Positions 2,652 to 29,350 of a stretch of 39,772 nt of DNA are shown piece after piece. The DNA comes from Alphaproteobacteria bacterium (GTDB lineage Bacteria; Pseudomonadota; Alphaproteobacteria; Bin65). The stretch lies in assembly GCA_021776685.1 (NCBI GenBank), contig JAJFFJ010000023.1, positions 1 to 39,772 of the forward strand, read 5' to 3'. Both the position numbers and the translations under genes were made by a program. The notes under the pieces were generated by a model, which was not told the origin of the DNA, ran no database searches, and saw nothing but the letters and a program-made list of their open reading frames with translations. Each line of letters starts with the position of its first letter. The first letter of the stretch is position 1.

Positions 2652-3829
2652 CCATCACCTGCGAAGTAGGCGGTCATGCGCTCGATCGCCGCGTCCAGGG
2701 TCGCGTCCTCCTTACAGAAAGAAAAGCGCACGAAATGCTGCGGCGGTTCTTCACCATAGAAGGCGCTGACAGGCACTGCGGTCACACCACCGTCGACGGT
2801 CATGCGCCGGCAGAATTCCACATCGTCGCCGTTGAAGCCGTTCAGGCGCGGGATCAAAGGGCGGAAATCACAGAAGATGAAATAGGTCCCCTCACAGGGA
2901 ATCACGCCAAAGCCGATATCCTCCAGCCCTTGCGCCATCCGGTCCCGGCTGCGCTGCAGGTCGGCGGACAGGCCGGTGAAATAAGCATCGTCCTTGCCCA
3001 GACCATAGGCCGCGGCGCGCTGCAGATTGGGCGGTGTTGTGAAGGTCAGAAACTGATGGGTCTTCGCGATCGGCGTCATCAACTCAGCGGACCCCGTCAG
3101 ATAACCGACCTTCCAGCCGGTCAGCGAAAACGTCTTGCCGGCGGAACCGATGCGGATACAGCGATCCCGCATACCCGGCAGGGTCATCAGCGGAATATGC
3201 TCGCGCCCGTCGAAGGTCAGATGCTCATAGACCTCGTCGCATACCGCGTAGGCATCATGCTTCAGACAAAGGTCGGCGATGAATTCAAGCTCTTCCCGGC
3301 TGTAGACCTTGGACGCCGGATTTTGCGGCGTGTTCAGCAGGATCAACTTGGTCTTGTCTGAAAAAGCCGCCGCCAGTTCGTCCCGTGGCAACTCCCAGTT
3401 TGGCGGCGCTATTCGCACAAGTTTGGGCACGGCCCCGGCGCGGCGGACGATGGGCAGATAGCAGTCATAAAGTGGCTCGATCAACACCACTTCGTCGCCA
3501 GGCTCAATCAACCCGAAATGACAGGCCGCCAGCGCCTCCGTCGCACCCGACGTGACGAGGGTTTCCGTCTGCCAGTCCACATCCAGATCGTAGAAACGCT
3601 TGTTGTGGGCGGCCACGGCCTGGCGCAACTCCGGCACACCCATCATGGGCGGATACTGGTTGGGTGGCCCGTCCAGCGCTTCATGGGCCACGGCCCGCAC
3701 GTCATCCGGACCGTTGCCGTCGGGAAAGCCCTGCCCGAGGTTCACCGCCTCATGCTCGATGGCGAGGCGCGACATCACCTCGAAGACCGTGGTGCCGTAG
3801 CTGGAGAGTATCGAGTTCACTGGTTTCAT
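2648..3829 (-). CDS. Class I/II PLP-dependent aminotransferase
   Basis: A 393-residue fold-type I aminotransferase, closest by eye to the methionine/kynurenine-type (YbdL-like) group. Visible marks are the N-terminal LGQGFPD (31-37), SGATEAL (94-100), the cofactor-contacting NTPQNP (N170), CDEVYE (D198), the Schiff-base lysine K232 in SAGKTFSLTGWKVGY, and the C-terminal RFSF arginine that binds the substrate carboxylate. Full family length. It transfers an amino group from an amino acid to a 2-oxo acid in the cytoplasm; the exact substrate cannot be read from sequence. The stop overlaps the start of the next gene. About 80 bp separates it from the HAD gene upstream. Confidence 0.92.
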   Translation of the reverse strand: MKPVNSILSSYGTTVFEVMSRLAIEHEAVNLGQGFPDGNGPDDVRAVAHEALDGPPNQYPPMMGVPELRQAVAAHNKRFYDLDVDWQTETLVTSGATEALAACHFGLIEPGDEVVLIEPLYDCYLPIVRRAGAVPKLVRIAPPNWELPRDELAAAFSDKTKLILLNTPQNPASKVYSREELEFIADLCLKHDAYAVCDEVYEHLTFDGREHIPLMTLPGMRDRCIRIGSAGKTFSLTGWKVGYLTGSAELMTPIAKTHQFLTFTTPPNLQRAAAYGLGKDDAYFTGLSADLQRSRDRMAQGLEDIGFGVIPCEGTYFIFCDFRPLIPRLNGFNGDDVEFCRRMTVDGGVTAVPVSAFYGEEPPQHFVRFSFCKEDATLDAAIERMTAYFAGDG

Positions 3830-3908
3830 GGCGCAGTTTCACTTGATCACTGACATGGTCACTGAAGCGGCCATGGGCCGCTAAATCAACCGCAATTCGC
3901 CACCGGCG

Positions 3909-4628
3909 TCAGCAGCCGAGCTTGTCGGCCAAATCTTCGAAGCTGGTGGCGGCCACATCAACACCCTCCCAGGGCTCCCTGTCCTTGGTCTGGTCTTCAT
4001 CCGCAACTTCGGTCGGACGGCAGACAAACGCGGCGCTGAGCCCGGCAACTTTCGCCGCCTTCAGGTCATCATTGTGGGCGGCCACGAGCATGCATTCGGC
4101 GGGCGCGACACCCAGCATATCGGCAGCAGACAGGTAGGCCTCCGGCATCGGTTTGTAGGCTCTGGCCACCTCGGCGCCGAGTACAGCATCCCAGGGCAGG
4201 CCGGCGCGGCGGGCCATATTGACGATCAACGCCACGTTGCCATTGGAGAGGGAGGCCAGTGGATAATTGGTCCGCAGCCGGGTCATCCCCGCGACGGTAT
4301 CGGGCCAGGGATCGAGCCGGTGCCAGGCAAAGTTCAGATGATCGATCTCCGCTTCGGTCAGCCCGTCGATCTCAAACTCTTCCAGCACCTCAAGCAGGTT
4401 TTCCCGGTGCAGCACGTCAAGTTTGACGAAGCCGCGGTTGCCGGAGCGCACCCGCTCCATCGCCGGCTGGTACCTATTGCGCCAACTAAGCGCAAAGGCA
4501 TTCCAGTCCCGCTCCAACCCCTTGCCTGCACCCAGCAACGCTGCCGCTTCCCGCGCAATGCTGCGGCGCCAGTCCACGACCGTGCCAAACACATCGAATG
4601 TCAGCGCCTTCACATCTTCCAACGCCAT
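3909..4628 (-). CDS. Type II haloacid dehalogenase (HAD superfamily)
   Basis: A 239-residue HAD hydrolase of the L-2-haloacid dehalogenase group. Motif I is FDVFGTVVDW with the nucleophile Asp at residue 12; motif II is LSNGN; the motif III lysine is in YKPMPEAY; motif IV is AAHNDDL, close to the AAHNWDL form typical of type II dehalogenases. Expected to hydrolyse carbon-halogen or related ester bonds through an aspartyl-enzyme intermediate. A GGAG ribosome site sits six bases before the ATG, and the gene follows the upstream secreted-protein gene by three bases. The subfamily is fairly secure; the true substrate may not be halogenated. Confidence 0.9.
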   Translation of the reverse strand: MALEDVKALTFDVFGTVVDWRRSIAREAAALLGAGKGLERDWNAFALSWRNRYQPAMERVRSGNRGFVKLDVLHRENLLEVLEEFEIDGLTEAEIDHLNFAWHRLDPWPDTVAGMTRLRTNYPLASLSNGNVALIVNMARRAGLPWDAVLGAEVARAYKPMPEAYLSAADMLGVAPAECMLVAAHNDDLKAAKVAGLSAAFVCRPTEVADEDQTKDREPWEGVDVAATSFEDLADKLGC

Positions 4629-4631
4629 CTT

Positions 4632-5192
4632 CTACTCCTGCGGCAGCACGCCGGCGCGGATGAACTGCCCGGCGACGACCTCGATGGCGATGTCCAGCGG
4701 TTTGCGCACCTCCGCCCGAACCACGGCGCGATAGTCGGTGCGCCGTGGGTCATACCAGGCGCCGACAGGCATCAGTTTGCGGGCGTAAACACCCCGATAG
4801 GTCTTGCGTCCCTTGCGGATTCGAATGTCGAGATAGATGGAACAAAGTACGCCGATAGTGCCGATGTTTCGCTTCTGCGGCACGCAGACCTGGCGATACC
4901 GATGCAACCATAGCCGGCCAACGCGGGTGCGGGATGGGAACATGATGACCAATTTCCACAACAGATACTGGCCCATCGCCACCCGATGCTTTGAGCCGCG
5001 GACGGCAGTGGGATAGCTGGCCACGGCCTTGCGAAAGGACGACACATCCGTGTCCTTGATGATCTGATGAACCCGACCATGATGTTTCAGGGTCTTGTGA
5101 GGATGTTCGTCGTGGGTCACCTGTGCGAGCGCCGGCAACGCCACCGCCGCGATCAGTGCCACTACGATGATAAAGATCACGATCCGCTGCAT
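4632..5192 (-). CDS. Small secreted protein of unknown function
   Basis: A 186-residue protein beginning with a typical signal peptide (MQRIV, long hydrophobic stretch, cleavage after LALA-like PALA near residue 22). The mature part is basic, rich in His, Arg and Tyr, with two cysteines. I do not recognise the family and saw no catalytic motif. A strong purine-rich ribosome site (GGGAGAAGAG) precedes the ATG at 5192. It is the first gene of the minus-strand train leading to the sirtuin and diverges from the aminotransferase gene on the plus strand; their shared promoter region is about 140 bp. Confidence 0.78.
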   Translation of the reverse strand: MQRIVIFIIVVALIAAVALPALAQVTHDEHPHKTLKHHGRVHQIIKDTDVSSFRKAVASYPTAVRGSKHRVAMGQYLLWKLVIMFPSRTRVGRLWLHRYRQVCVPQKRNIGTIGVLCSIYLDIRIRKGRKTYRGVYARKLMPVGAWYDPRRTDYRAVVRAEVRKPLDIAIEVVAGQFIRAGVLPQE

Positions 5193-5331
5193 CTCTTCTC
5201 CCTCCCGGATGTCCCCGGTGTTTGCATCCCGGCGCGATCATAGTCAGCACCGGCGTATATGTCCCGTGCCGCGCAGACGACTCGCGTGACGGCCTTTGCC
5301 TGTGGTTTAACCGACCCGGAATTCCGCTTTG

Positions 5332-6540
5332 ATGCGAAATATGGACACGACGATGACAGGCGCGCTGCAGCTCTCAGAAAAAATGTCCCGTCTGGGCACG
5401 GAAACCGCCTTCCAGGTGCTCGCCCGGGCCGAGGCTCTGGCCCGTGATGGTCGGGACATTATCAATCTGGGCATTGGCCAGCCCGATTTCAAATCTCCAC
5501 CGCATGTGGTCGAGGCGGCACAAAAAGCGCTGGCCGATGGGCATCATGGCTATACGCCGGCGGCCGGCATTCCGCCGCTGCGCGAAGCTGTCGCCAGCTA
5601 TCTGGAGGCACAGCACGGTTCAGCCGTAGACCCCGCCAACGTGCTGATCTTCCCCGGCGGCAAGGTGACGATGTTTTTCGCCATCCTCATGTTCGGCGAG
5701 CCGGGCGCAGAGATCATGTATCCGAACCCCGGATTTCCGATTTACGAATCGGTGATCAACTTCACCGGAGCGACCGCCGTGCCTATCCGGTTGCTGGAAG
5801 AAACCGGATTCGCTTTCAAAGCCGAAGAAGTGCTGGCGCAGATCACCCCCCGCACCCGGCTGTTGATCATCAACAGCCCCGCCAACCCCACCGGGGGCGT
5901 GGTGCCGAAAGAGGAAATCGACAAACTAGTGGCGGGCCTCGCGGACCATCCGCATGTGGCGATCCTGAGCGATGAGATCTACTCCCGCCTCCTCTACGAC
6001 GGGCGCGAGCATGTCTCGCTGTTGTCCTATCCGGAAATCCGGGACCGGCTGATCCTGCTGGACGGATGGTCGAAGACATTTGCCATGACCGGCTGGCGCA
6101 TGGGCTATTCCGTCTGGCCCCGGGACCTCGTCGATCCGGCAGAGCGGCTGGCGGTCAACTGCCACTCCTGCGTCAACGCGGCGGCCCAGTGGGCCGGCCT
6201 GGCAGCCCTCGAAGGTCCCCAGGACCAGGTGGACAAAATGGCCCGCGATTTTGATGAGCGCCGCCGCGCCATCGTCCCTGCGCTCAACCAGCTTCCCGGG
6301 GTCACCTGCGTCGAACCGCTTGGCGCCTTCTACGCCTTCCCAAATATTACCGGGACGGGCATGAGCGCCCGGGACCTGCAAGACAAATTGCTGGAGGAAG
6401 TCGGCGTCGCCACCGTGGCCGGCACCAGCTTTGGCGCACTCGGCGAAGGCTATATCCGCTTCTCTTACGCCAACAGCCTCGAGAATATTGAAACCGCCAT
6501 CAGCCGCATCGGCACCTGGCTGACAGATCAGAACGGCTGA
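5332..6540 (+). CDS. Class I PLP-dependent aminotransferase (AspC I-gamma-like)
   Basis: A second fold-type I aminotransferase, 402 residues from the ATG at 5332 (an ATG at 5341 is also possible, and a TTG lies at 5329). It shows LGIGQPDF, HHGYTPAAG, SPANPTGG, SDEIYSRL and the PLP lysine in GWSKTFAMTGWRMGY (about residue 248), ending with a RFSYANS substrate-arginine segment. This is the aspartate/aromatic aminotransferase type common in alphaproteobacteria. It precedes an acyl-CoA synthetase gene by 26 bp, so the two are probably co-transcribed, which suggests amino-acid or amino-acyl catabolism. No strong ribosome site separates the possible starts. Confidence 0.91.
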   Translation: MRNMDTTMTGALQLSEKMSRLGTETAFQVLARAEALARDGRDIINLGIGQPDFKSPPHVVEAAQKALADGHHGYTPAAGIPPLREAVASYLEAQHGSAVDPANVLIFPGGKVTMFFAILMFGEPGAEIMYPNPGFPIYESVINFTGATAVPIRLLEETGFAFKAEEVLAQITPRTRLLIINSPANPTGGVVPKEEIDKLVAGLADHPHVAILSDEIYSRLLYDGREHVSLLSYPEIRDRLILLDGWSKTFAMTGWRMGYSVWPRDLVDPAERLAVNCHSCVNAAAQWAGLAALEGPQDQVDKMARDFDERRRAIVPALNQLPGVTCVEPLGAFYAFPNITGTGMSARDLQDKLLEEVGVATVAGTSFGALGEGYIRFSYANSLENIETAISRIGTWLTDQNG

Positions 6541-6566
6541 CCCCGCTCAAAAGACAGACCTGCCCC

Positions 6567-8189
6567 ATGTACCACCCCAACCTGACCCAATCCCTGTTCC
6601 TGGCGCAGACCGATGACGTGGTTCTCGAAACAACCGTCGGCGGCCTGCTTCGCGAACGCGCCGATATATCTGCTGCGGCAAGCGCCATGGTCGAGGTGGG
6701 AATGGACGGCGAAACGGGCCGCACCTGGACGTTTGCCCAACTGCTGGATGATAGCGAGAAGCTGGCACTGGCGCTGGCCTCCCGGTTCGCGCCGGGCGAA
6801 CGGGTCTGCGTCTGGGCGCCCAACATTCCCGAATGGCTTTTGATGGAATATGCCTGCGGTCTGGCCGGCCTGGTGCTGGTGACCGCGAACCCGTCCTATC
6901 AGGCGGCGGAATTGCGTTATGTGCTGGAGCAGTCCTCGTCCGCAGCGCTCTTCACCATCGACAGCTACCGCGGCAATCCCATGGCGGAGATTGCGGCCCG
7001 CGCCTGTGAGGGGCTCCCCGCAGTACGCGAGATCACCGACCTGGAGGATCCGGCAGTCCTCTATCGGATCGGCGACAGACCAACAGAATTGCCGGACGTC
7101 TCGCCGGACGATCCGGCCCAGATCCAGTACACATCCGGCACCACGGGCTTTCCCAAGGGCGCCGTGCTGCACCACCGTGGTCTGACGAATAACGGGCGGC
7201 TGGTGGCGGCCCGTGTGGGCGCGCCGGACGGGTCCACATGGACCAACTTCATGCCGATGTTTCACACCAGCGGCTGCGGGATCATCGCCCTCGGCACATT
7301 GCAGACCGGATCGCGCATGCTGATGGTCAAGATGTTCGATCCCCTGCAGGCCATTCAGCTGATTGAACAGGAGCGTCCCCGGGTGGTGCTGGCCGTCCCC
7401 ACCATGCTGGTGGGCATGCTGGAAGCCCTGGAGGCCGAACCACATGACATGAGCTCGATCGACGTGGTGATCTCCGGTGGCTCCCTCGTCGCGCCGGAAT
7501 TGATCCGCCGGGTGCGGGACCGTTTCGACTGCTTTTACCAATCGGTCTACGGCCAGACTGAGACGTCGCCGGTGGTCACCCAGAGCCAGCGGGAAGACTC
7601 CGTGGAAGACCTTTGCCATACGGTGGGCCAGCCCCTGCCCTGCACCGCGATCTCCATTCGCAGCACTGAGGCTAATTCCGTTGTCGCCCTGGACAGCATC
7701 GGCGAGATCTGCAGCCAGGGCTACTGCAACATGGTTGGCTACAACGACAATCCCGACGCCACCGCCGCCGCCATCGACTCTGACGGCTGGCTGCACACGG
7801 GCGACCTGGGAACCATGGATGCACGCGGCTATGTGCGGGTCACCGGCCGGGTGAAGGAAATGATCATCCGCGGCGGCGAAAACCTGTTCCCGGCGGAAAT
7901 CGAAAATGTTCTGCTGGAGCATGCAACGGTGGCGGAGGTCGCCGTTGTCGGGCTGCCGGATGACCGTTGGGGTGAGATTGTCGCCTGTTTCGTTCGCCCG
8001 GAGCCCGGCGCGACAGTGGGTGCCGCGACCCTGCGCGAGCATTGCCGCGCCCATCTCTCGCCCCAGAAAACGCCGGCTGTATGGGTGTCCCTAGGCGAGT
8101 TTCCACTGACAGGCTCAGGAAAGATTCAGAAATTCCGCCTGCGCGAGATGTATGTGGAAGGCGCCTTTGACGGCAGCCGGATTGACTGA
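6567..8189 (+). CDS. AMP-forming acyl-CoA synthetase
   Basis: A 540-residue member of the ANL adenylate-forming superfamily. The phosphate-binding loop is YTSGTTGFPKG, followed by YGQTET (A5), GWLHTGDLG (A7), RVKEMIIRGGENLFPAEIE (A8) and the C-terminal catalytic lysine K519 in TGSGK (A10). It activates a carboxylic acid to the acyl-adenylate and then the CoA thioester in the cytoplasm. Length and motif set fit medium/long-chain or FadD3-like fatty acyl-CoA ligases; the chain-length preference is unknown. It lies 26 bp after the aminotransferase gene and is the last gene before the glnB regulatory region. Confidence 0.94.
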   Translation: MYHPNLTQSLFLAQTDDVVLETTVGGLLRERADISAAASAMVEVGMDGETGRTWTFAQLLDDSEKLALALASRFAPGERVCVWAPNIPEWLLMEYACGLAGLVLVTANPSYQAAELRYVLEQSSSAALFTIDSYRGNPMAEIAARACEGLPAVREITDLEDPAVLYRIGDRPTELPDVSPDDPAQIQYTSGTTGFPKGAVLHHRGLTNNGRLVAARVGAPDGSTWTNFMPMFHTSGCGIIALGTLQTGSRMLMVKMFDPLQAIQLIEQERPRVVLAVPTMLVGMLEALEAEPHDMSSIDVVISGGSLVAPELIRRVRDRFDCFYQSVYGQTETSPVVTQSQREDSVEDLCHTVGQPLPCTAISIRSTEANSVVALDSIGEICSQGYCNMVGYNDNPDATAAAIDSDGWLHTGDLGTMDARGYVRVTGRVKEMIIRGGENLFPAEIENVLLEHATVAEVAVVGLPDDRWGEIVACFVRPEPGATVGAATLREHCRAHLSPQKTPAVWVSLGEFPLTGSGKIQKFRLREMYVEGAFDGSRID

Positions 8190-21556: not shown

Positions 21557-22411
21557 TCAGCTCCCGGCCTGATTTGACGCCTGCTTCGACGCCTCAAAGG
21601 CGGCATTCAAGCTTTCCTGCATGCGCCCGGCCCCCATCAGCAAACAGCCACCGTCAACCGGCAGGCTGATACCGGTAATGTAGGCTGCGGCCGGCGAAGA
21701 CAGGAAGATACAGGCATCCGCTATTTCCTGCTTGGTGCCGTAGCGTTGGATCGGCAGGCCCATGCCCGCATCTTTTTTGCGCACCTCGTCGGTGGAAAGA
21801 CGGCGCATGCCCTCCGTATCCGCAATGGGACCGGGCACGATGGTATTGACCCGAACGTTCAATGGACCCCATTCGACCGCCAGGCATTGGGCCAGCATCT
21901 CGACCCCCGCTTTTGCAGCGCAGACGTGGGACTGCAGGCCATAGGGGATTAAGCCCTGGGGCGCCGAAATTGCGATGCAGGAGGCGCCTGACGGGCTGTC
22001 CGTATTCAGGTGCTCATGTCCGGCACGGAAGACGTTGAAGGTGCCCTGCAAATCAATGTCCATCACGGTCTTGAAGGCGTTGGCAGACATCCCCAGCGCC
22101 GGCACCACAAAATTTCCCGCAGCGCCGGAAATCAGCACATCGATAGGCCCAAGTGACTGCACAGCCGTCTTGAGCGCATAGGCGACCTGCTCATAGTCAC
22201 GCACGTCTGCTGTGGCGCCGATGGCGTCCACACCTTCGCTTTTGAATCCGGCGATGGCGGCTTCCACATTTTCCGCCTTGCGGCTGCAGGTGGAGATATT
22301 CGCGCCCATGCGGGCAAAGCCATGGCCGATGCCCTGGTTGATGCCGGTGGTGCCACCGGCGATGAACACATGCTTGCCCCGGAAATAGTCCGGATCGAAA
22401 AGATGGGGCAT
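21557..22411 (-). CDS. 2,4-dienoyl-CoA reductase-type short-chain dehydrogenase
   Basis: A 284-residue SDR. The NAD(P)-binding segment is GGTTGINQGIG (19-29), with a GAAGN strand-4 motif at 96-100. The catalytic YxxxK tyrosine is absent: position 163 before K167 is Val in SHVCAAKAG. This, together with LAVEWGP.N.RVN and PGPI..TEGM.RL, is the pattern of peroxisomal-type 2,4-dienoyl-CoA reductases, which lack that Tyr. It is therefore likely to be an NADPH-dependent reductase in unsaturated fatty-acid beta-oxidation. AGGAGG six bases before the ATG at 22411 sets the start, discarding 26 residues of upstream frame. Confidence 0.87.
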   Translation of the reverse strand: MPHLFDPDYFRGKHVFIAGGTTGINQGIGHGFARMGANISTCSRKAENVEAAIAGFKSEGVDAIGATADVRDYEQVAYALKTAVQSLGPIDVLISGAAGNFVVPALGMSANAFKTVMDIDLQGTFNVFRAGHEHLNTDSPSGASCIAISAPQGLIPYGLQSHVCAAKAGVEMLAQCLAVEWGPLNVRVNTIVPGPIADTEGMRRLSTDEVRKKDAGMGLPIQRYGTKQEIADACIFLSSPAAAYITGISLPVDGGCLLMGAGRMQESLNAAFEASKQASNQAGS

Positions 22412-22520
22412 GGCTGCCTCCTGCATTGGCGTGATGAATATGGTGGCGGCTGTGCTAACAGATTGCCCGTCACCCACCAATTGGCCCATCGGTCACCCCT
22501 GCCCCCATTTGCCAGTGAAC

Positions 22521-23384
22521 ATGCCTGCTGATCCGCCCGCCACTGCGCCCCTGCAAACTGCGCCCGTCGTTGTCGCCTTCTCCGCAGAAGTGCCGGACCC
22601 GGGGGACTATCTGACATTGCCCATGTCGGACCCCGGCGTCTTGCTTGTGCGGCAGAGCGATGGCGCTGTCTCGGCCTTCCTCAACCGTTGCCGGCACCGC
22701 CGCCGGCCTGTGGTCATCGAAGCCCATGGCGACGGCGCCCGCGGCTTCATCTGCCCCTTCCATGCCTGGCGCTATGGTCTGGACGGCGACCTGACCTATG
22801 CGCCCAAGCATGACTGGCCGGAAGGGGACGGCTGGGCCGGGATACAGCGCCTGTTGGTGATCGAGGACGGTGGACTGATCCTCACGGCCGATGAACCAGA
22901 CGCGAAGGCGGCGGCGATCCAGCAGGGACCCGCCGAGGCCTTACAGATCTTGCGCGGCCTGATTCCGGAAGGATTGGCACGGGTGGCCCGCGCAGCGGTC
23001 CGTACAGAGTCTGAACTCCCCACCATGATGTCTCTGGCGGCCACGGTGCTGATCCCCAACGCCGACTCCTTCGTTGTGAGGTCACGCGAGCCGGCCGCGC
23101 AGGTCTTTCGCGCGCCAGACGGCGATGCCAACGGTCCAGGCCATCTGTTCCTGCTCGGCCCGGGAACCCTCATCTGGCGGAATGATAGCGGGGCAACCCT
23201 GGTGCGGGCCAAAGTCCTGCGGCGGGGCGGCTGCGAAGTGCAGATTGCCGGATTTGCCCATGGTCCCGCCCCGGAGCATCCGGCCAATGATCTTGCCCAT
23301 GCCCTGCAGGAGGACACGGGCGGCGATGAAAACGGCGTCCTGTTGCCGGCGATCGCCGCGGCTTTTGCGTCGCCCGATCCTTAG
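22521..23384 (+). CDS. Rieske [2Fe-2S] protein lacking the oxygenase iron domain
   Basis: A 287-residue protein from the ATG at 22521. The Rieske cluster ligands are intact: C57-x-H59 (CRH) and C78-x2-H81 (CPFH), followed by AWRYGLDG as in ring-hydroxylating oxygenase alpha subunits. The C-terminal half, about 180 residues, shows no D-x2-H-x4-H mononuclear-iron motif, and the protein is much shorter than the roughly 400-450 residues of true alpha subunits. It may be an electron carrier or an inactive relative. The start is uncertain: the frame runs back to 22410, over the divergent SDR start, and no good ribosome site was seen. Confidence 0.78.
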   Translation: MPADPPATAPLQTAPVVVAFSAEVPDPGDYLTLPMSDPGVLLVRQSDGAVSAFLNRCRHRRRPVVIEAHGDGARGFICPFHAWRYGLDGDLTYAPKHDWPEGDGWAGIQRLLVIEDGGLILTADEPDAKAAAIQQGPAEALQILRGLIPEGLARVARAAVRTESELPTMMSLAATVLIPNADSFVVRSREPAAQVFRAPDGDANGPGHLFLLGPGTLIWRNDSGATLVRAKVLRRGGCEVQIAGFAHGPAPEHPANDLAHALQEDTGGDENGVLLPAIAAAFASPDP

Positions 23385-23452
23385 GTATTTGCACCGGCAA
23401 GACGCCATGATAAAGTTAGTTGCATAAGAAAACTTAATCGAAAAACCTAAGA

Positions 23453-23472
23453 GCTGGGACTGCCATCCCAGC
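23453..23472. other. Small hairpin before the diiron-oxidase-like gene
   Basis: A perfect 7-bp inverted repeat (GCTGGGA and TCCCAGC) with a six-base loop, placed 8 bp before the AGGGAG ribosome site of the next gene. It has no T-run, so it is not a standard terminator; it could affect translation or be incidental. Confidence 0.35.
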
Positions 23473-23492
23473 CGACGTTGAGGGAGCACATC

Positions 23493-24242
23493 ATGCCGGA
23501 CGCCAGCGGTTCCGCCATCGCCGAACAGATCGTCGCCATTCGCGAAAAATGGCACACCAAGAAACACCCCTTCTTCACGTCCATGCTCGATGGCTCGCTA
23601 CCGATCAAGGCGCTCGGCATCTACATGGCCCAACACCAGAAATTCGTGAACAAGGCCGTGCCCGGCTTCGGCCTGATGGTCTACAGCTCACCGCCCGACG
23701 TGCGGAAGGCCATGGTGGAGAACCTGGCGGAAGAGGAAGGCCTGCTGGCAATCCCCAAGGAAGGCCATGTGGCCCACGACCACTGGGCAATGATCTCCGG
23801 ATTCTGCCTCGCCTCCGGCATGACCCAGGACGAGATCGAGAATACCGAGCCGACGCCCGGCTGGTGGGGACGGACGCTGCACTATGTGAATACCATGCGC
23901 GAGGAGCCGGTGGGCGTGGCGCTGGCCATGCAGGCGACCCAGGAAGGCCAGCAGGTGGCCCTCAACACCGAAATCACCATCCCGTCCTTCGCCAAACACT
24001 ATGGCTACACCGCCGAGGATGACGAGATCTCCTTCTTCGTGGAGCATGCCGAGGCGGACGCGGAGCACAGCCGCCGCCAGCTAGACCTCGCCGTCAAATA
24101 TCTCGACACCCCGGAGTTGCAGGCCCGCGCCCTGAAGGTTTGCGACGAAGCCGTGCGCCTCCGCTGGGCGTCCACCAACGACATCTACGAGATGCATGTG
24201 CTGGGTAATCAGCCGATGATGCCGGAGGGAGTTGCGGCCTAG
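23493..24242 (+). CDS. Heme-oxygenase-fold probable diiron oxidase (TenA/PqqC-like)
   Basis: A 249-residue all-helical protein of the TENA/PQQC or heme-oxygenase-like diiron oxidase (HDO) superfamily. Likely metal ligands are visible: the acidic cluster E80-E82 (AEEEG), His in EGHVAHDHW (92-97), E151 (ATQEG), and the late signature H185-x3-D189-x2-H192 (EHAEADAEH). The H..D..H set is typical of HDOs rather than thiaminase TenA. HDOs carry out varied O2-dependent reactions such as N-oxygenation, desaturation and C-C cleavage. AGGGAG at 23481-23486 fixes the ATG at 23493. It is flanked by two Rieske genes on the same strand, which suggests a shared oxidative role. Confidence 0.85.
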   Translation: MPDASGSAIAEQIVAIREKWHTKKHPFFTSMLDGSLPIKALGIYMAQHQKFVNKAVPGFGLMVYSSPPDVRKAMVENLAEEEGLLAIPKEGHVAHDHWAMISGFCLASGMTQDEIENTEPTPGWWGRTLHYVNTMREEPVGVALAMQATQEGQQVALNTEITIPSFAKHYGYTAEDDEISFFVEHAEADAEHSRRQLDLAVKYLDTPELQARALKVCDEAVRLRWASTNDIYEMHVLGNQPMMPEGVAA

Positions 24243-24398
24243 CCTCTCCGCCTGCCAACGTGAAACCGGCTAGCGCCGGGCCTTAATGTTCTTTCGTCAC
24301 CGCAATTTCGCCGACCGAAGCAATGGGTAGAAATTTTCAGATCGCCCGATAAACTATAAAAAACCGCAACCAATGCGCCTAATGAAAGAGGAAAGCCG

Positions 24399-25526
24399 AT
24401 GAGCCCCGATGCTGACGCCGCGCCTGTCCTGCAAGGGATTGAGCCCTCACAATATCCGCGCCTGACCGTTCCACGCAGGGCCGGGCCTGATCCCCGCTTC
24501 CTGCGCAACAGCTGGTATGTGGTGATGTTTTCGTCGGAGCTCGAAGCCGGCCAGTTGATGCATCGCACCATCCTGAACGAGCCCATCGTATTTTACCGGA
24601 AGGAAAAGGGGGGCATTGCCGCCTACACGGATCGCTGTCCCCATCGCTCTGTCCCGCTGTCGATGGGTAAGCTTTGCCCGGGGGATCGGGTGCAATGCAT
24701 CTATCATGGGTTGGAATTCGGCCCCGACGGGCAATGCGTAAATAATCCGCACGGAACCGGTAACATTATCGACGCCTTGCACCTCAGAAGTTTCCCGGTC
24801 GTCGAAAAACATACGCTGATCTGGATCTGGATGGGCGATAAGCCGGCCGACCCCGACAATATTCCGGACTATAGCTGTCTCGATGACCGGCCCGAGCTGC
24901 ACGTGACCCGGCCCGGCTATCTCAACGTCAAGGCACACTACACGCTCGTCGTCGATAACCTGCTCGACCTGAGCCACATCAACTACACCCATGCCGGAAT
25001 TCTCGGCAACGCCGATGCGGTCAAGGCCGAGGTCGATATCACCCAGGAAGGCGATGTCGTCACGGCCAGCCGCAACAGCACGGATACCGAGACCCCCGGG
25101 ATTCTGAAGATGATGGCCCCGGATTTGCCGCGGGGGAGCTTGTGGAACTCGATCTCCTGGTATGCACCGAGCAATCTGCTTCTGCAGTTCGGCATGAGTG
25201 CGGATGGCGAGTCCAAAGAGAGCGGCACTGGCTACTACGCGATCCATTTCCTGACGCCCGAGACCGAGCGGACGACCCACTATCACTACACGGCCTCCCG
25301 CTACAACGTCCTCACGGACGATGAGGCGAACAGGGAGATGCGGGACCTGATCTACAAGATGCGGACCTTCGCCTTCGCCGATCAGGATGTGCCAATAATC
25401 GAGGCCCAGCAAATCGCCCTGGACCAGGCGAGTGAAGAAGTCGAGCAGGCCCTTCTGAATGTGGATGCCGGGCCCAACCGCTATCTCAGAGTTCTCGACA
25501 AACTGTTGCGCGAGGAAGGGAGCTAG
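24399..25526 (+). CDS. Rieske non-heme iron oxygenase, terminal oxygenase subunit
   Basis: A 375-residue oxygenase alpha subunit of the vanillate O-demethylase/Group I type. Rieske ligands: C80/H82 (CPHR) and C100/H103 (CIYHGLEF). Mononuclear iron site: D187/D190, H193 and H198 in DNLLDLSHINYTHAG. Such enzymes hydroxylate or demethylate aromatic or steroidal substrates with electrons from a separate reductase. No reductase gene is adjacent. GAGGAA lies six bases before the ATG. A weak stem-loop (24266-24279) lies between this gene and the HDO gene; a strong terminator follows. Confidence 0.93.
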   Translation: MSPDADAAPVLQGIEPSQYPRLTVPRRAGPDPRFLRNSWYVVMFSSELEAGQLMHRTILNEPIVFYRKEKGGIAAYTDRCPHRSVPLSMGKLCPGDRVQCIYHGLEFGPDGQCVNNPHGTGNIIDALHLRSFPVVEKHTLIWIWMGDKPADPDNIPDYSCLDDRPELHVTRPGYLNVKAHYTLVVDNLLDLSHINYTHAGILGNADAVKAEVDITQEGDVVTASRNSTDTETPGILKMMAPDLPRGSLWNSISWYAPSNLLLQFGMSADGESKESGTGYYAIHFLTPETERTTHYHYTASRYNVLTDDEANREMRDLIYKMRTFAFADQDVPIIEAQQIALDQASEEVEQALLNVDAGPNRYLRVLDKLLREEGS

Positions 25527-25714: not shown

Positions 25715-26248
25715 CTATTGAATGGATTTAAGTTTCTTGAAGTTAATTTTGCGCGCAAACGCGAAAACTACGTCCTTTGGCACATTTGATGAGAATATAA
25801 CGATGCCAAATTCACCAGCGACAATAAACAAATTTGAATTTTTATTTGTACCTTTAAAGTAAGCGGTCATACCATTTATCTGCATTTTGTTATTTTTTTT
25901 GAATTCTTCTCTGATAACTTTCTGGTATTCCTTTTTTTGACTGTAGGAGATATATATTGTGATCGATTTACTACAACACGGTGGAGACTGATAACCACGC
26001 TCTGCACTGGGATAATATTTTTTCTGTCCTTGCTCGGTCGCCAGTTCAGCCTGCGTAATGCCCTTAGAGGCCTTAAAACCTTCCAGCTCGGCCGGCAATG
26101 TTGACAGCATCTGGCGAGCAAACTGCTCGGCGCTGCTTTTGGTGAACATCGGGACCGTCTTTGCATGGCTCTCGGGTTCAAAACCAGCCCACGCAGCTAC
26201 GAGGCATGCAACAATTGTTGTCAGGCCGCGAATTCGCATCAATCCCAT
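25715..26248 (-). CDS. AT-rich gene for a small secreted protein
   Basis: A 177-residue protein from the ATG at 26248 (26239 is equally possible) with a signal peptide ending near SHA, residue 31. I do not know its function. It has a CC pair in the middle, a Lys/Asn-rich second half and the C-terminal segment FARKINFKKL. That end resembles LARKINWRKL in the protein at 35718-36242, and both share an LP.....G(F/W) segment after the signal, so the two are probably distant relatives. The second half is markedly AT-rich compared with all neighbours, including runs of A and T, suggesting transfer or relaxed selection. Confidence 0.75.
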   Translation of the reverse strand: MGLMRIRGLTTIVACLVAAWAGFEPESHAKTVPMFTKSSAEQFARQMLSTLPAELEGFKASKGITQAELATEQGQKKYYPSAERGYQSPPCCSKSITIYISYSQKKEYQKVIREEFKKNNKMQINGMTAYFKGTNKNSNLFIVAGEFGIVIFSSNVPKDVVFAFARKINFKKLKSIQ

Positions 26249-26717
26249 TTTAACATCCGAACGGTTTAGTCGAGGCTCCTTATCTAGGCTCCTCTCAGAA
26301 AACCGACTGTAGATAGAATGGAATCCAAAGGCAACGAATCGGCCTTTTCCGCGTGCCTGCCTCGGAAATACGAGATGGCCGGGATATCGGCCAACACCTT
26401 TCCCGGTTTGTAAACTCAGCAGCGGAAACCGAACCATTTGTCGGTAGCAAATGATTTGGGCGAGGACCGGTATGCGATTCATTAGACTTCGTAGCCGTCC
26501 GCTCTGGGACACAAGCGGACATCACGGCATCAAAATTTCGAGTCAGTTAAAGGTTCACCAGCTGACCTTTTTCGCGCGCTTCGCTCTAAATAAAAATACC
26601 CCGTGGCCGCTTTGCGCAACGGGCGACCACAGGGCTTTGAATATGACAGCGGTGGGACAGCGTTAGGCCCCGACACGGGGCTCAGAGGTCCATCGGTCCC
26701 GATGGCGTTCTGCCGGC
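26249..26717. other. Intergenic region without a supported gene
   Basis: About 470 bp between the AT-rich secreted-protein gene and the nitrile hydratase-like alpha gene. It holds the minus-strand terminator at 26587-26633 and two short hairpins without T-runs (26667-26681 and 26690-26705). Open frames here lack ribosome sites and recognisable protein features. Confidence 0.6.
26587..26633 (-). terminator. Intrinsic terminator of the carboxylase/nitrile hydratase-like gene train
   Basis: Read on the minus strand: a 12-bp stem (26622-26633 with 26598-26609, two G-U pairs), a 12-base loop, then TATTTTTATTT. It lies about 85 bp past the stop of the alpha-like gene and should end the long transcript. 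Confidence 0.88.
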
Positions 26718-27413
26718 CTAGTTCGGCAGTTCCACCTCGGCGACACCGATCATGGAGTCGCGGCCGATGACGCCCGCGAGTTGTTCCTCGCTCCAGCCAT
26801 CGGTGCCGGCGGGGCGCTTTGGAAGCACCATGTAGCGCATGTCGGCGGTGGAATCGTGGACGCGGACTTCGCGGTCATCGCCGATCTCGGTGCCGAACTC
26901 GTGCAGGACCTGCCGCGGGTGGCGGACGACGCGGGAGCGGTATTCCCGGCTCTTGTACCAGTCCGGCGGCCGGCCCAGAACGAAGACTGGATAGCAGGAG
27001 CAGAGCGTGCAGACGACCACGTTGTGGACGTCTTCGGTATTCTCGACCACCACCAGGTCCGCGACCACCACATCGATGTCCATTTCGTCTTTCAGCGTCT
27101 TCTTGCCGTTGGTCAGCAGTCGCTCCTTGAAGGACGGGTCGGTCCAAGCCTTGGCGACAATACTGGCGCCGATGGCCGGTGTGCGGCTGTCGATCCGTTC
27201 GATCATCTCACGCACGTCGGAGCCGTCGAAATAGCCCTTTTCGATCAGCAGCTCGCGGGCGGCATCGGCCAGATTGTGATAGTGGCCCGTCGGCTCGTCC
27301 GCCTGGATCGGCGTATGGTCGTGATCGTGGTCATGCCCGTGACCGTGGCTATGGCCGGTATCGTCATCATGCCCATCATCGGGCCCATCATCGTGATCGT
27401 GGCTATGGGGCAT
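26718..27413 (-). CDS. Nitrile hydratase alpha / thiocyanate hydrolase gamma-like subunit, cobalt type
   Basis: A 231-residue catalytic subunit. The metal claw VCTLCSC (C135, C138, S139, C140) is the cobalt-type form, in which two cysteines are normally oxidised. The flanks ENTEDVHN, LGRPPDWYKS and RYMVLPKRPAGTDGWSEEQL are strongly nitrile-hydratase-like. The first 34 residues hold 11 His alternating with Asp/Gly, a probable metal-loading tail like that known in thiocyanate hydrolase gamma. Unusually, the two residues after CYP are Val-Phe (143-144), where nitrile hydratases usually have Trp-Pro. It hydrates nitriles to amides or hydrolyses thiocyanate. The start overlaps the beta C-domain gene stop (TGATG). 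Confidence 0.92.
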   Translation of the reverse strand: MPHSHDHDDGPDDGHDDDTGHSHGHGHDHDHDHTPIQADEPTGHYHNLADAARELLIEKGYFDGSDVREMIERIDSRTPAIGASIVAKAWTDPSFKERLLTNGKKTLKDEMDIDVVVADLVVVENTEDVHNVVVCTLCSCYPVFVLGRPPDWYKSREYRSRVVRHPRQVLHEFGTEIGDDREVRVHDSTADMRYMVLPKRPAGTDGWSEEQLAGVIGRDSMIGVAEVELPN

Positions 27414-27712
27414 CAGTTGCCTCCTTCTGCTGGCTCCAGCCAGTGTTCGAATATCTCCACATCTACCTTGTCCGCAGCCGGCCCGTCATAGTCGGGCCAC
27501 ACATGAGCCTGATCGAACCGCACCCGGTAGAGCGGAAAGGCGTTGGCGTCATAGTCGCCGAAGGCCAGTTGCTCCGGATTTTTATATTCACCGCAGATGC
27601 GCTCAACAGCGCCGGTCTTGCCGCGGATATAGTAAGGCGTGCGGATATGGCGGGGCCCCGTGGGATATCGGGCCGCGACGGTGACCTTATCACCAGGGGC
27701 GAAGCGGGCCAT
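27413..27712 (-). CDS. Nitrile hydratase beta C-terminal domain as a separate subunit (ScnA-like)
   Basis: A 99-residue protein matching only the C-terminal SH3-like barrel of nitrile hydratase beta. It shows FAPGDKV, PRHIRTPYYIRGKTG (the arginines near the alpha-subunit claw), the PEQLAFGD loop, LYRVRFD and the closing DKVDVEIFEHWLEPA. In thiocyanate hydrolase this domain is likewise a separate polypeptide (alpha subunit), whereas ordinary nitrile hydratases have it fused to the N-domain. The ATG at 27712 overlaps the upstream stop by one base, and its own stop overlaps the alpha gene start, so the three are tightly coupled. Confidence 0.9.
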   Translation of the reverse strand: MARFAPGDKVTVAARYPTGPRHIRTPYYIRGKTGAVERICGEYKNPEQLAFGDYDANAFPLYRVRFDQAHVWPDYDGPAADKVDVEIFEHWLEPAEGGN

Positions 27713-28080
27713 CACGCGCCTCCTCCAGAGTTTTCGACACCTTTTTCGACCACCGGCTCGCCCGCGGCCTTGCGCGCAGCCACATCCGCCATGCGCGCGT
27801 CCAGCTCTTCCCGGCTCAGCACGTCCTTCTCCACCAGAATCTCCGTCAGCCCGGCAATCCATTTCTCATAGTAGGAAACGCCGTCATAGACCTCCGGCGG
27901 CAACTCCTCGATGCCGCGGCGCAGCTCGTCGATGGTAATGATCGGCGGTTGGCGCAGGGACAAAAGCCGCACCAGTGCCTCGATGCGTTTCTCCCAAGGT
28001 TCGAACTCGTGGGTGGAGGGCTGGACCGTCTCCGCGTCAAGCCCGCCCATGTCGTGATGTTGGCGTGTATCATCGGTCAT
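27712..28080 (-). CDS. Nitrile hydratase beta N-terminal domain-like protein, copy 2
   Basis: A 122-residue protein matching the N-terminal half of nitrile hydratase beta or thiocyanate hydrolase beta: HHDMGG (9-13), FEPWEKRIEAL, the helix DELRRGIEELPPEVY, YYEKWIAGLTEILVEK and SREELDARM. After that comes a short Ala/Gly/Glu-rich tail like the linker that normally joins the two beta domains, and the next gene supplies the second domain. It is probably the structural beta N-subunit. It is clearly related to the gene upstream (28222-28539). A role as metallochaperone, as in nitrile hydratase activators, is an alternative. Confidence 0.88.
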   Translation of the reverse strand: MTDDTRQHHDMGGLDAETVQPSTHEFEPWEKRIEALVRLLSLRQPPIITIDELRRGIEELPPEVYDGVSYYEKWIAGLTEILVEKDVLSREELDARMADVAARKAAGEPVVEKGVENSGGGA

Positions 28081-28110
28081 GGGGCGGAGTATGCCAAATT
28101 TCAGACCCGT

Positions 28111-28140
28111 TCGTCATCCCCGTGAATACAGGGGTCCAAA
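28111..28140. repeat. REP-like palindromic element
   Basis: A short imperfect palindrome, TCGTCATCCCC followed after nine bases by GGGGTCC, matching the widespread proteobacterial type of intergenic repeat (CGTCATCCCCGCG...CGGGGATCC) from memory. It sits in the only sizeable gap, about 140 bp, inside this gene train, between the two beta N-domain copies. No other copy was seen in the window. Confidence 0.6.
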
Positions 28141-28221
28141 AAACGCCGCGGAACCGGATTCTCGCCTTGGCAGGAAGGACCGATTGATTTGGCCGCACCA
28201 TCAATCAATGCGACCGACCGT

Positions 28222-28539
28222 TCAGCCTTTCGCTCTGACCCGCGCTTCCAGCTCATCCCGATCAAGAATGCCTTGTTCGATCAGATGGTTGGTCACGGCC
28301 AGCGCCCAGCGGCCGTAATAGCCGGCGCTGTCGTATACGTCCGGCGGCAGGGATTCGATATGGCGGCGCAACTCGTCAACGCGCATGGTCCGGGTCTTGT
28401 AGCCGGTGAGCAGATAGACCACCGCCTCTAGCTCTTTTTCCCAGTCAGCCTCTTCATGGCCGGTACGATCGATAGGCCCCGCGGGTTCGCTGCCAACCTG
28501 GCCACCCATGTCGTGATGCTGGCGCGGGTCCTCCGCCAC
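28222..28539 (-). CDS. Nitrile hydratase beta N-terminal domain-like protein, copy 1
   Basis: A 105-residue protein from a GTG at 28539, four bases past the stop of the crotonase gene. It repeats the layout of the next gene: PRQHHDMGG near the N-terminus, DWEKELEAVVYLL, VDELRRHIESLPPDVY, YYGRWALAVTNHLIEQG and DRDELEARV. It ends directly after this helix, without the linker-like tail of copy 2. Two adjacent genes of this kind suggest duplication. One may be a structural subunit and the other a cobalt-insertion chaperone, since nitrile hydratase activators share this fold; however, both copies keep the HDMGG segment I associate with true subunits. Confidence 0.85.
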   Translation of the reverse strand: MAEDPRQHHDMGGQVGSEPAGPIDRTGHEEADWEKELEAVVYLLTGYKTRTMRVDELRRHIESLPPDVYDSAGYYGRWALAVTNHLIEQGILDRDELEARVRAKG

Positions 28540-28543
28540 GGGG

Positions 28544-29350
28544 CTACCGGCCCTTGAAATCAGCGTCGCGGCGTTCGGTGAAGCTGGCGACACCTTCCTG
28601 AAAATCCTCGCTGCGCATCAGGCGGGGTGCGATCTGGTCGAACTGCAATACGGCGGCCTGCTGGCCGGCATAGGTGTAGGTGCGGGCATTCTCCATGGTC
28701 GCCTGCACGGCCAGCGGCGCCTGTTTCACGATGCTTTCCGCCAGTTCCATGGCCCGGGCCTCGGCCTGTCCCTTGGGCGTGATCTCCTGGATGAAATGCA
28801 TGCGCTTGGCCTCGTCCGGCCCGAATTCGTCGCCCGTGAGCAGCCAGCGCATGGCGTCGCCCCAGCCGGCGCGGCTGACAAAGCGAATGGTGGCGCCGCC
28901 GAGGGCCATGATGCCCCGCTTGACCTCAAGCTGGCTGAAGCGGGTGCCCTCCTCCGCCACGACGATGTCACACGCGAGCATGAGCTCAATGCCCAGGGTG
29001 AAACAGATACCCTTCACGGCCGCGATCACCGGCTTGGTGCGGAGCGGCGGACGCAGGCCCATGGGATCGATGGTGCCGGCCGGCATCATATGGCCGTCCA
29101 CGGACTCGAATTCCGACAGATGAAGTCCAGCGGTGAAATTATCGCCATTGGCCTGGACCACGCAGCACCACGCATCTCGGTCTTCTTCATAGGTCGTATA
29201 GGCTTCCGCCAGCTCGTGCATCATGGCCGGGGTGAAGCCGTTATATTTCGTCGGCCGGTCGATGGTGATGACGAAGATGCGGTCCCGCCGCTCCCACAGG
29301 ATCTGGCCGGCCTCCGGGCCATCCTCGGTCTTGTGTTTCACATGGGGCAT
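28544..29350 (-). CDS. Enoyl-CoA hydratase (crotonase family)
   Basis: A 268-residue crotonase. Both hydratase glutamates are present: E122 in LGIELMLACD and E142 in SQLEVKRG, so water addition to an enoyl-CoA is likely. The oxyanion segment is NFTAGLHL (71-78). AGAGGA lies seven bases before the ATG at 29350. It follows the carboxyltransferase gene by 47 bp and precedes the nitrile hydratase-like genes by four bases. In known isoprenoid and leucine routes a crotonase hydrates the carboxylated acyl-CoA (AtuE or LiuC role); by position this gene fits that step. Confidence 0.92.
   Translation of the reverse strand: MPHVKHKTEDGPEAGQILWERRDRIFVITIDRPTKYNGFTPAMMHELAEAYTTYEEDRDAWCCVVQANGDNFTAGLHLSEFESVDGHMMPAGTIDPMGLRPPLRTKPVIAAVKGICFTLGIELMLACDIVVAEEGTRFSQLEVKRGIMALGGATIRFVSRAGWGDAMRWLLTGDEFGPDEAKRMHFIQEITPKGQAEARAMELAESIVKQAPLAVQATMENARTYTYAGQQAAVLQFDQIAPRLMRSEDFQEGVASFTERRDADFKGR

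Follow-up and report, generated by a model that had tools for sequence, protein, structure and literature searches.

A CADD-like candidate diiron oxidase encoded between two lineage-specific Rieske genes in an alphaproteobacterium

Results

Gene content of the locus

The window analysed here is the whole stretch of 39,772 nt, and three of its open reading frames are our subject: smR, for a small Rieske protein, HDO, for a diiron-type oxidase of the heme-oxygenase fold, and RO, for a Rieske oxygenase (Table 1). An initial annotation had reported an HDO gene between two Rieske genes, all on one strand, and the three same-strand frames are indeed present there. For HDO, we place the start at an ATG 7 nt after a GAGGGAG, in preference to the TTG at 23478, and convincing ribosome-binding sites precede both HDO and RO. 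The intergenic gaps (108 bp between smR and HDO, 156 bp between HDO and RO) are partly AT-rich, and their length makes the three genes unlike one tightly packed operon. Promoter and terminator scans of the locus gave background levels only, no reductase gene lies among the immediate neighbours examined, and a plasmid search returned only matches of 26-27%.

The orphan frame downstream of RO has a possible signal peptide and is not present in the sister genus; with its low GC content it looks like a recent acquisition. The nitrile hydratase (NHase) encoded beyond it (26718-28593, minus strand) is of the three-subunit type, with beta split over two genes.

Table 1. Features of the locus, with positions in the window.
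Feature	Position	Strand	Remarks
SDR oxidoreductase	21557..22489	-	before smR; adjoins HDO in the sister genus and NHase alpha in genus g4
smR, degenerate Rieske dioxygenase alpha subunit	22521..23384	+	287 aa; PF00355 E 4e-14
HDO, CADD/PqqC-like heme-oxygenase-fold protein	23493..24242	+	249 aa; PF14518 1e-14, PF03070 3e-9
RO, complete VanA/DdmC-type Rieske oxygenase	24399..25526	+	375 aa; PF00355 3e-21, VanA_C PF19112 2e-42
Orphan ORF	25715..26512	-	no Pfam match; low-GC stretch between RO and NHase
Nitrile hydratase alpha subunit	26718..27413	-	PF02979 259 bits; VCTLCSC motif, His-rich N-terminus
Nitrile hydratase beta, C-terminal half	27413..27862	-	PF02211
Nitrile hydratase beta, N-terminal half	27712..28080	-	PF21006
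Second nitrile hydratase beta-N paralogue	28222-28593	-	missing from sister-genus genome G001

The two Rieske proteins

RO had been called a complete Rieske oxygenase, and its features bear this out: both PF00355 and PF19112 score above their cut-offs, as in the VanA/DdmC type, and the mononuclear iron ligands D190, H193, H198 and D330 are conserved. Within the family, its best homologues are paralogues encoded elsewhere and do not exceed 46%. RO is probably an independent monooxygenase/demethylase.

The description of smR as truncated likewise stands. The protein begins almost at its Rieske domain, without the N-terminal part of alpha subunits, and is some 100 aa short in the catalytic domain relative to dioxygenase alpha subunits. 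Its Rieske [2Fe-2S] motif (CxH...CxxH) is intact, while the mononuclear Fe site that marks a ring-hydroxylating dioxygenase alpha subunit (NWKL-D-H-H, 2-His-1-carboxylate) was not found in the smR alignment. No relative of the C-terminal half turned up in the 240 genomes sampled from the class, and the structural model is reliable for the Rieske domain only, with low confidence elsewhere. We also considered a Rieske ferredoxin, a stand-alone protein of about 100 aa, and rejected it, as smR has 287 aa and matches dioxygenase alpha subunits. smR is probably an oxygenase in decay, or else serves ad hoc as an electron carrier.

Fold, metal site and family of HDO

The predicted structure of HDO (AF2, from 13 orthologues; mean pLDDT 88) is a heme-oxygenase-like helical fold. 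The nearest fold to the model is that of CtCADD (TM 0.90, Z 26.5, 213 aligned, rmsd 1.8), followed by PqqC (Z 23.9); by sequence, the solved structures nearest to HDO are NePabS and CADD. Alignment to CADD assigns the predicted diiron ligands to E81, H97, E151, H185, D189 and H192, in the pattern EE-x15-H, E, H-x3-D-x2-H (3-His/3-carboxylate). All six are invariant in the 46 homologues that we collected, so the ligand set that the initial annotation had thought likely is conserved among orthologues. The polar residues R127, Y131, Q153 and N158 are invariant as well, Q150 is kept in 45 of the 46, and W124 is among the residues conserved with these around the motifs. We assume that W124, R127, Y131, Q150, Q153 and N158 line the pocket; the invariant polar residues suggest that the substrate may itself be polar. 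Sequence and model together make HDO credible as a diiron oxidase, from a CADD-like subfamily that is uncharacterised.

Both the sequence and the fold neighbours raise the question of whether HDO is a self-sacrificing p-aminobenzoate synthase, since CADD and NePabS make this compound by consuming their own Tyr and Lys (PMC11965152). The positions of CADD Tyr27 and Lys152 are, however, occupied by F28 and I161 in HDO, none of its homologues has a Lys at 161, and it reaches only 56.5 bits on TIGR04305, against a cut-off of 200. With both sacrificed residues missing, we consider a CADD-type activity extremely unlikely.

The HDO tree divides into several subclades, and up to three paralogues are found in some genomes of one order. 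The family is sparse: of 385 genomes sampled from the class, 7 have a member (the window's own genome among them), and in a sample of 398 genomes from the phylum only the window's own has a close one; its distribution is patchy, in Rieske-rich bacteria.

Conservation of the gene trio

We compared 21 HDO loci, calling genes by codon-usage scoring (HDO itself was missed at a few loci) and counting Rieske genes by profile search; a TauD gene at L132 matched by regular expression only and was discarded as a false positive. The smR-HDO-RO arrangement was seen in the window genome only, and at none of the other 20 loci is HDO flanked by two Rieske genes. In the sister genus g2 (genome G001) the locus comprises SDR, HDO and NHase genes with no Rieske gene, and the HDO and NHase reading frames converge about 8 bp apart. 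Elsewhere HDO adjoins a glutathione-reductase-like gene (genus g3) or a TctC-type receptor gene (freshwater proteobacterial loci), and in family f179 it is the last gene of a run with a Rieske oxygenase, a cupin, a hydrolase, a regulator, an SDR and a ThDP enzyme.

A Rieske neighbour is not rare by chance in these bacteria, as HDO-carrying genomes have 31-79 Rieske genes each (all 17 genomes searched). Within 2 kb of HDO a Rieske gene occurs at 3 of 21 loci (0.81 expected), or at 2 of 20 when the window is left out (p 0.18); within 8 kb the counts are 8 of 21 (2.8 expected, p 0.008) and, leaving the window out, 7 of 20 (p 0.017), all p-values resting on a set count of 45 Rieske genes per uncounted genome and being optimistic because they ignore Rieske gene clustering. 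Finding Rieske genes on both sides of HDO by chance is, on the other hand, improbable in itself (about 0.002 over the 21 loci). The 8-kb enrichment and the f179 run make a loose functional link between HDO and Rieske chemistry possible.

The initial annotation went further, proposing that smR, HDO and RO carry out one multi-step oxidation in which smR supplies the electrons. The genes are adjacent and co-directional, both Rieske centres are intact by motif, and MboAB offers a precedent for an HDO with a dedicated redox partner, although that partner, MboB, is a flavin/Fe2S2 reductase and not a Rieske protein (PMC13185094). The comparison nevertheless speaks against such a scheme, which we regard as very unlikely: the three genes are rarely adjacent, being found together in one genome, and Rieske genes are altogether missing from the locus in the sister genus. 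smR resembles alpha subunits rather than ferredoxins and has an orphan C-terminal half, and the gaps and the lack of a reductase gene among the neighbours examined point the same way. Since HDO is kept in many bacteria without these Rieske neighbours, the three proteins are probably not a dedicated team, as far as gene order can tell.

Two other groups of loci deserve mention. At L045 (9191-18653), L046 and L126, the Rieske/cupin/hydrolase/SDR/ThDP run closed by HDO directly adjoins genes that, read from sequence, resemble cobalamin biosynthesis genes. At L031 (14113-17022) a glutamine-synthetase-like gene is followed directly by a Rieske alpha subunit gene, a pair reminiscent of aniline degradation clusters.

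Nitrile hydratase genes near HDO

HDO lies beside NHase genes both in the window and in G001, and in an unrelated genome from another order (G765) an HDO of another subclade forms a one-strand run with genes for an FAD monooxygenase, NHase alpha and beta and an accessory protein, which, by gene arrangement, apparently is one operon. Two independent HDO-NHase adjacencies in about 20 loci compare with about 0.05 expected (p about 0.001), an estimate from NHase density computed after the pattern had been noticed. In G765:C122 (L132, 3537-8605) the run, at 3537-7393, faces a gene for gentisate 1,2-dioxygenase; HDO and NHase are most strongly linked there.

These adjacencies bring up the idea that HDO, like AetD, makes a nitrile or otherwise feeds NHase, in place of an aldoxime dehydratase. 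AetD is an HDO nitrile synthase that acts on a tryptophan (PMC11611611), a precedent that makes the idea testable, and aldoxime dehydratase genes are often found in operons with NHase (PMC8955678). On the other side, the HDO and NHase genes of the window and of G001 converge and so form no operon, in the close relatives G003 and G005, which hold NHase-ECH clusters, HDO was not detected, and the other HDO loci examined showed no NHase nearby. NHase is present in all 18 HDO-carrying genomes, but also in 7 of 9 HDO-negative genomes of the same order, so this co-occurrence is explained by lineage and is uninformative. AetD was not among the matches listed for HDO in sequence and fold searches, which excludes nothing. 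On balance we find it improbable that HDO supplies NHase in this way, and slightly more doubtful still that a diiron oxidase makes nitriles in catabolic pathways and passes them to nitrile hydratase; if true, oxidase and nitrile hydratase would make up a route alongside the aldoxime-nitrile pathway. Our searches of the open-licence literature gave no paper that ties an HDO to nitrile hydratase within a cluster of catabolic genes. As a lead to a partner of HDO, nitrile hydratase is still weak, though better supported than the Rieske neighbours.

NHase genes also occur in the sponge-derived relatives of the window genome (L019 and its genus), among them a sponge-named MAG. A sponge nitrile hydratase is reported to act on aeroplysinin-1 (PMC3766881).

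Discussion

The locus is best explained, with a probability that we put at about 70%, by a conserved stand-alone HDO with two lineage-specific Rieske neighbours. HDO would be an O2-activating diiron oxidase in its own right: as in other HDOs, its Fe(II)2 centre and O2 would give a peroxo-diferric species, which would then oxidise a small polar substrate, and the enzyme may work within accessory, mostly catabolic gene sets.

A comparison among relatives hints at how the locus arose. In G005 (genus g4), where HDO was not detected, an unbroken run in one direction consists of genes for ECH, the NHase beta halves, NHase alpha and SDR, the last two being 164 bp apart. At this NHase-SDR junction G001 has HDO, on the opposite strand; the window has there the two Rieske genes and the orphan frame in addition to HDO. 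HDO may thus have been inserted at this point into an older cluster of ECH, nitrile hydratase and SDR genes, and the Rieske genes, which flank HDO only in the window's genus (g1), would have been gained in g1 or lost in g2. Judged from few genomes, some of them incomplete, insertion at the junction is probably the right reading, rather than loss.

The initial annotation was therefore right about an HDO with a conserved diiron ligand set and about the genes that surround it, while its view of the grouping as a multi-step oxidation did not hold up; cooperation of HDO with two Rieske proteins is not supported by the comparison of loci. In genomes with tens of Rieske genes, an adjoining Rieske gene is weak evidence of partnership. 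About a dozen of more than 10,000 HDOs have been functionally validated according to a 2026 review, and these are linked mainly to natural-product biosynthesis (PMC13108848). With its invariant metal site, its distinct conserved residues and its occurrence among catabolic genes in Pseudomonadota rich in Rieske genes, the present family can reasonably be searched for new O2 chemistry.

Among known systems, RO is like DdmC (dicamba O-demethylase) and the guaiacol O-demethylase 7qwt in combining Rieske and VanA_C domains and in carrying D190-x2-H193-x4-H198 and D330, and differs in that no reductase gene is found among its immediate neighbours. smR shares a Rieske domain with the ring-hydroxylating dioxygenase alpha subunits HcaE and CntA, whose fold its low-confidence model matches, but it is short, lacks the mononuclear Fe ligands and has a unique C-terminal half. 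HDO has the fold of PqqC and TenA; PqqC itself was rejected as an identity, at 21.9 bits on TIGR02111 against a cut-off of 240, and the kept metal ligands argue for an HDO rather than for either of these. With CtCADD and NePabS it shares the fold, the six metal-ligand positions, the HPF-region and a Tyr (Tyr44) at the position of NePabS Tyr41; structural identity to CtCADD is 18-19%, and HDO differs from both in having Phe and Ile in place of the sacrificial Tyr and Lys, together with its own HDH motif and a large set of invariant polar residues peculiar to it. Finally, although AetD is not among its listed sequence matches and it lies outside any biosynthetic cluster, unlike AetD and other 3-His/3-carboxylate HDOs, the window protein has the 3-His/3-carboxylate pattern of AetD, UndA, BesC, HrmI, PolF and MboA, and would be expected to share their peroxo-diferric chemistry.
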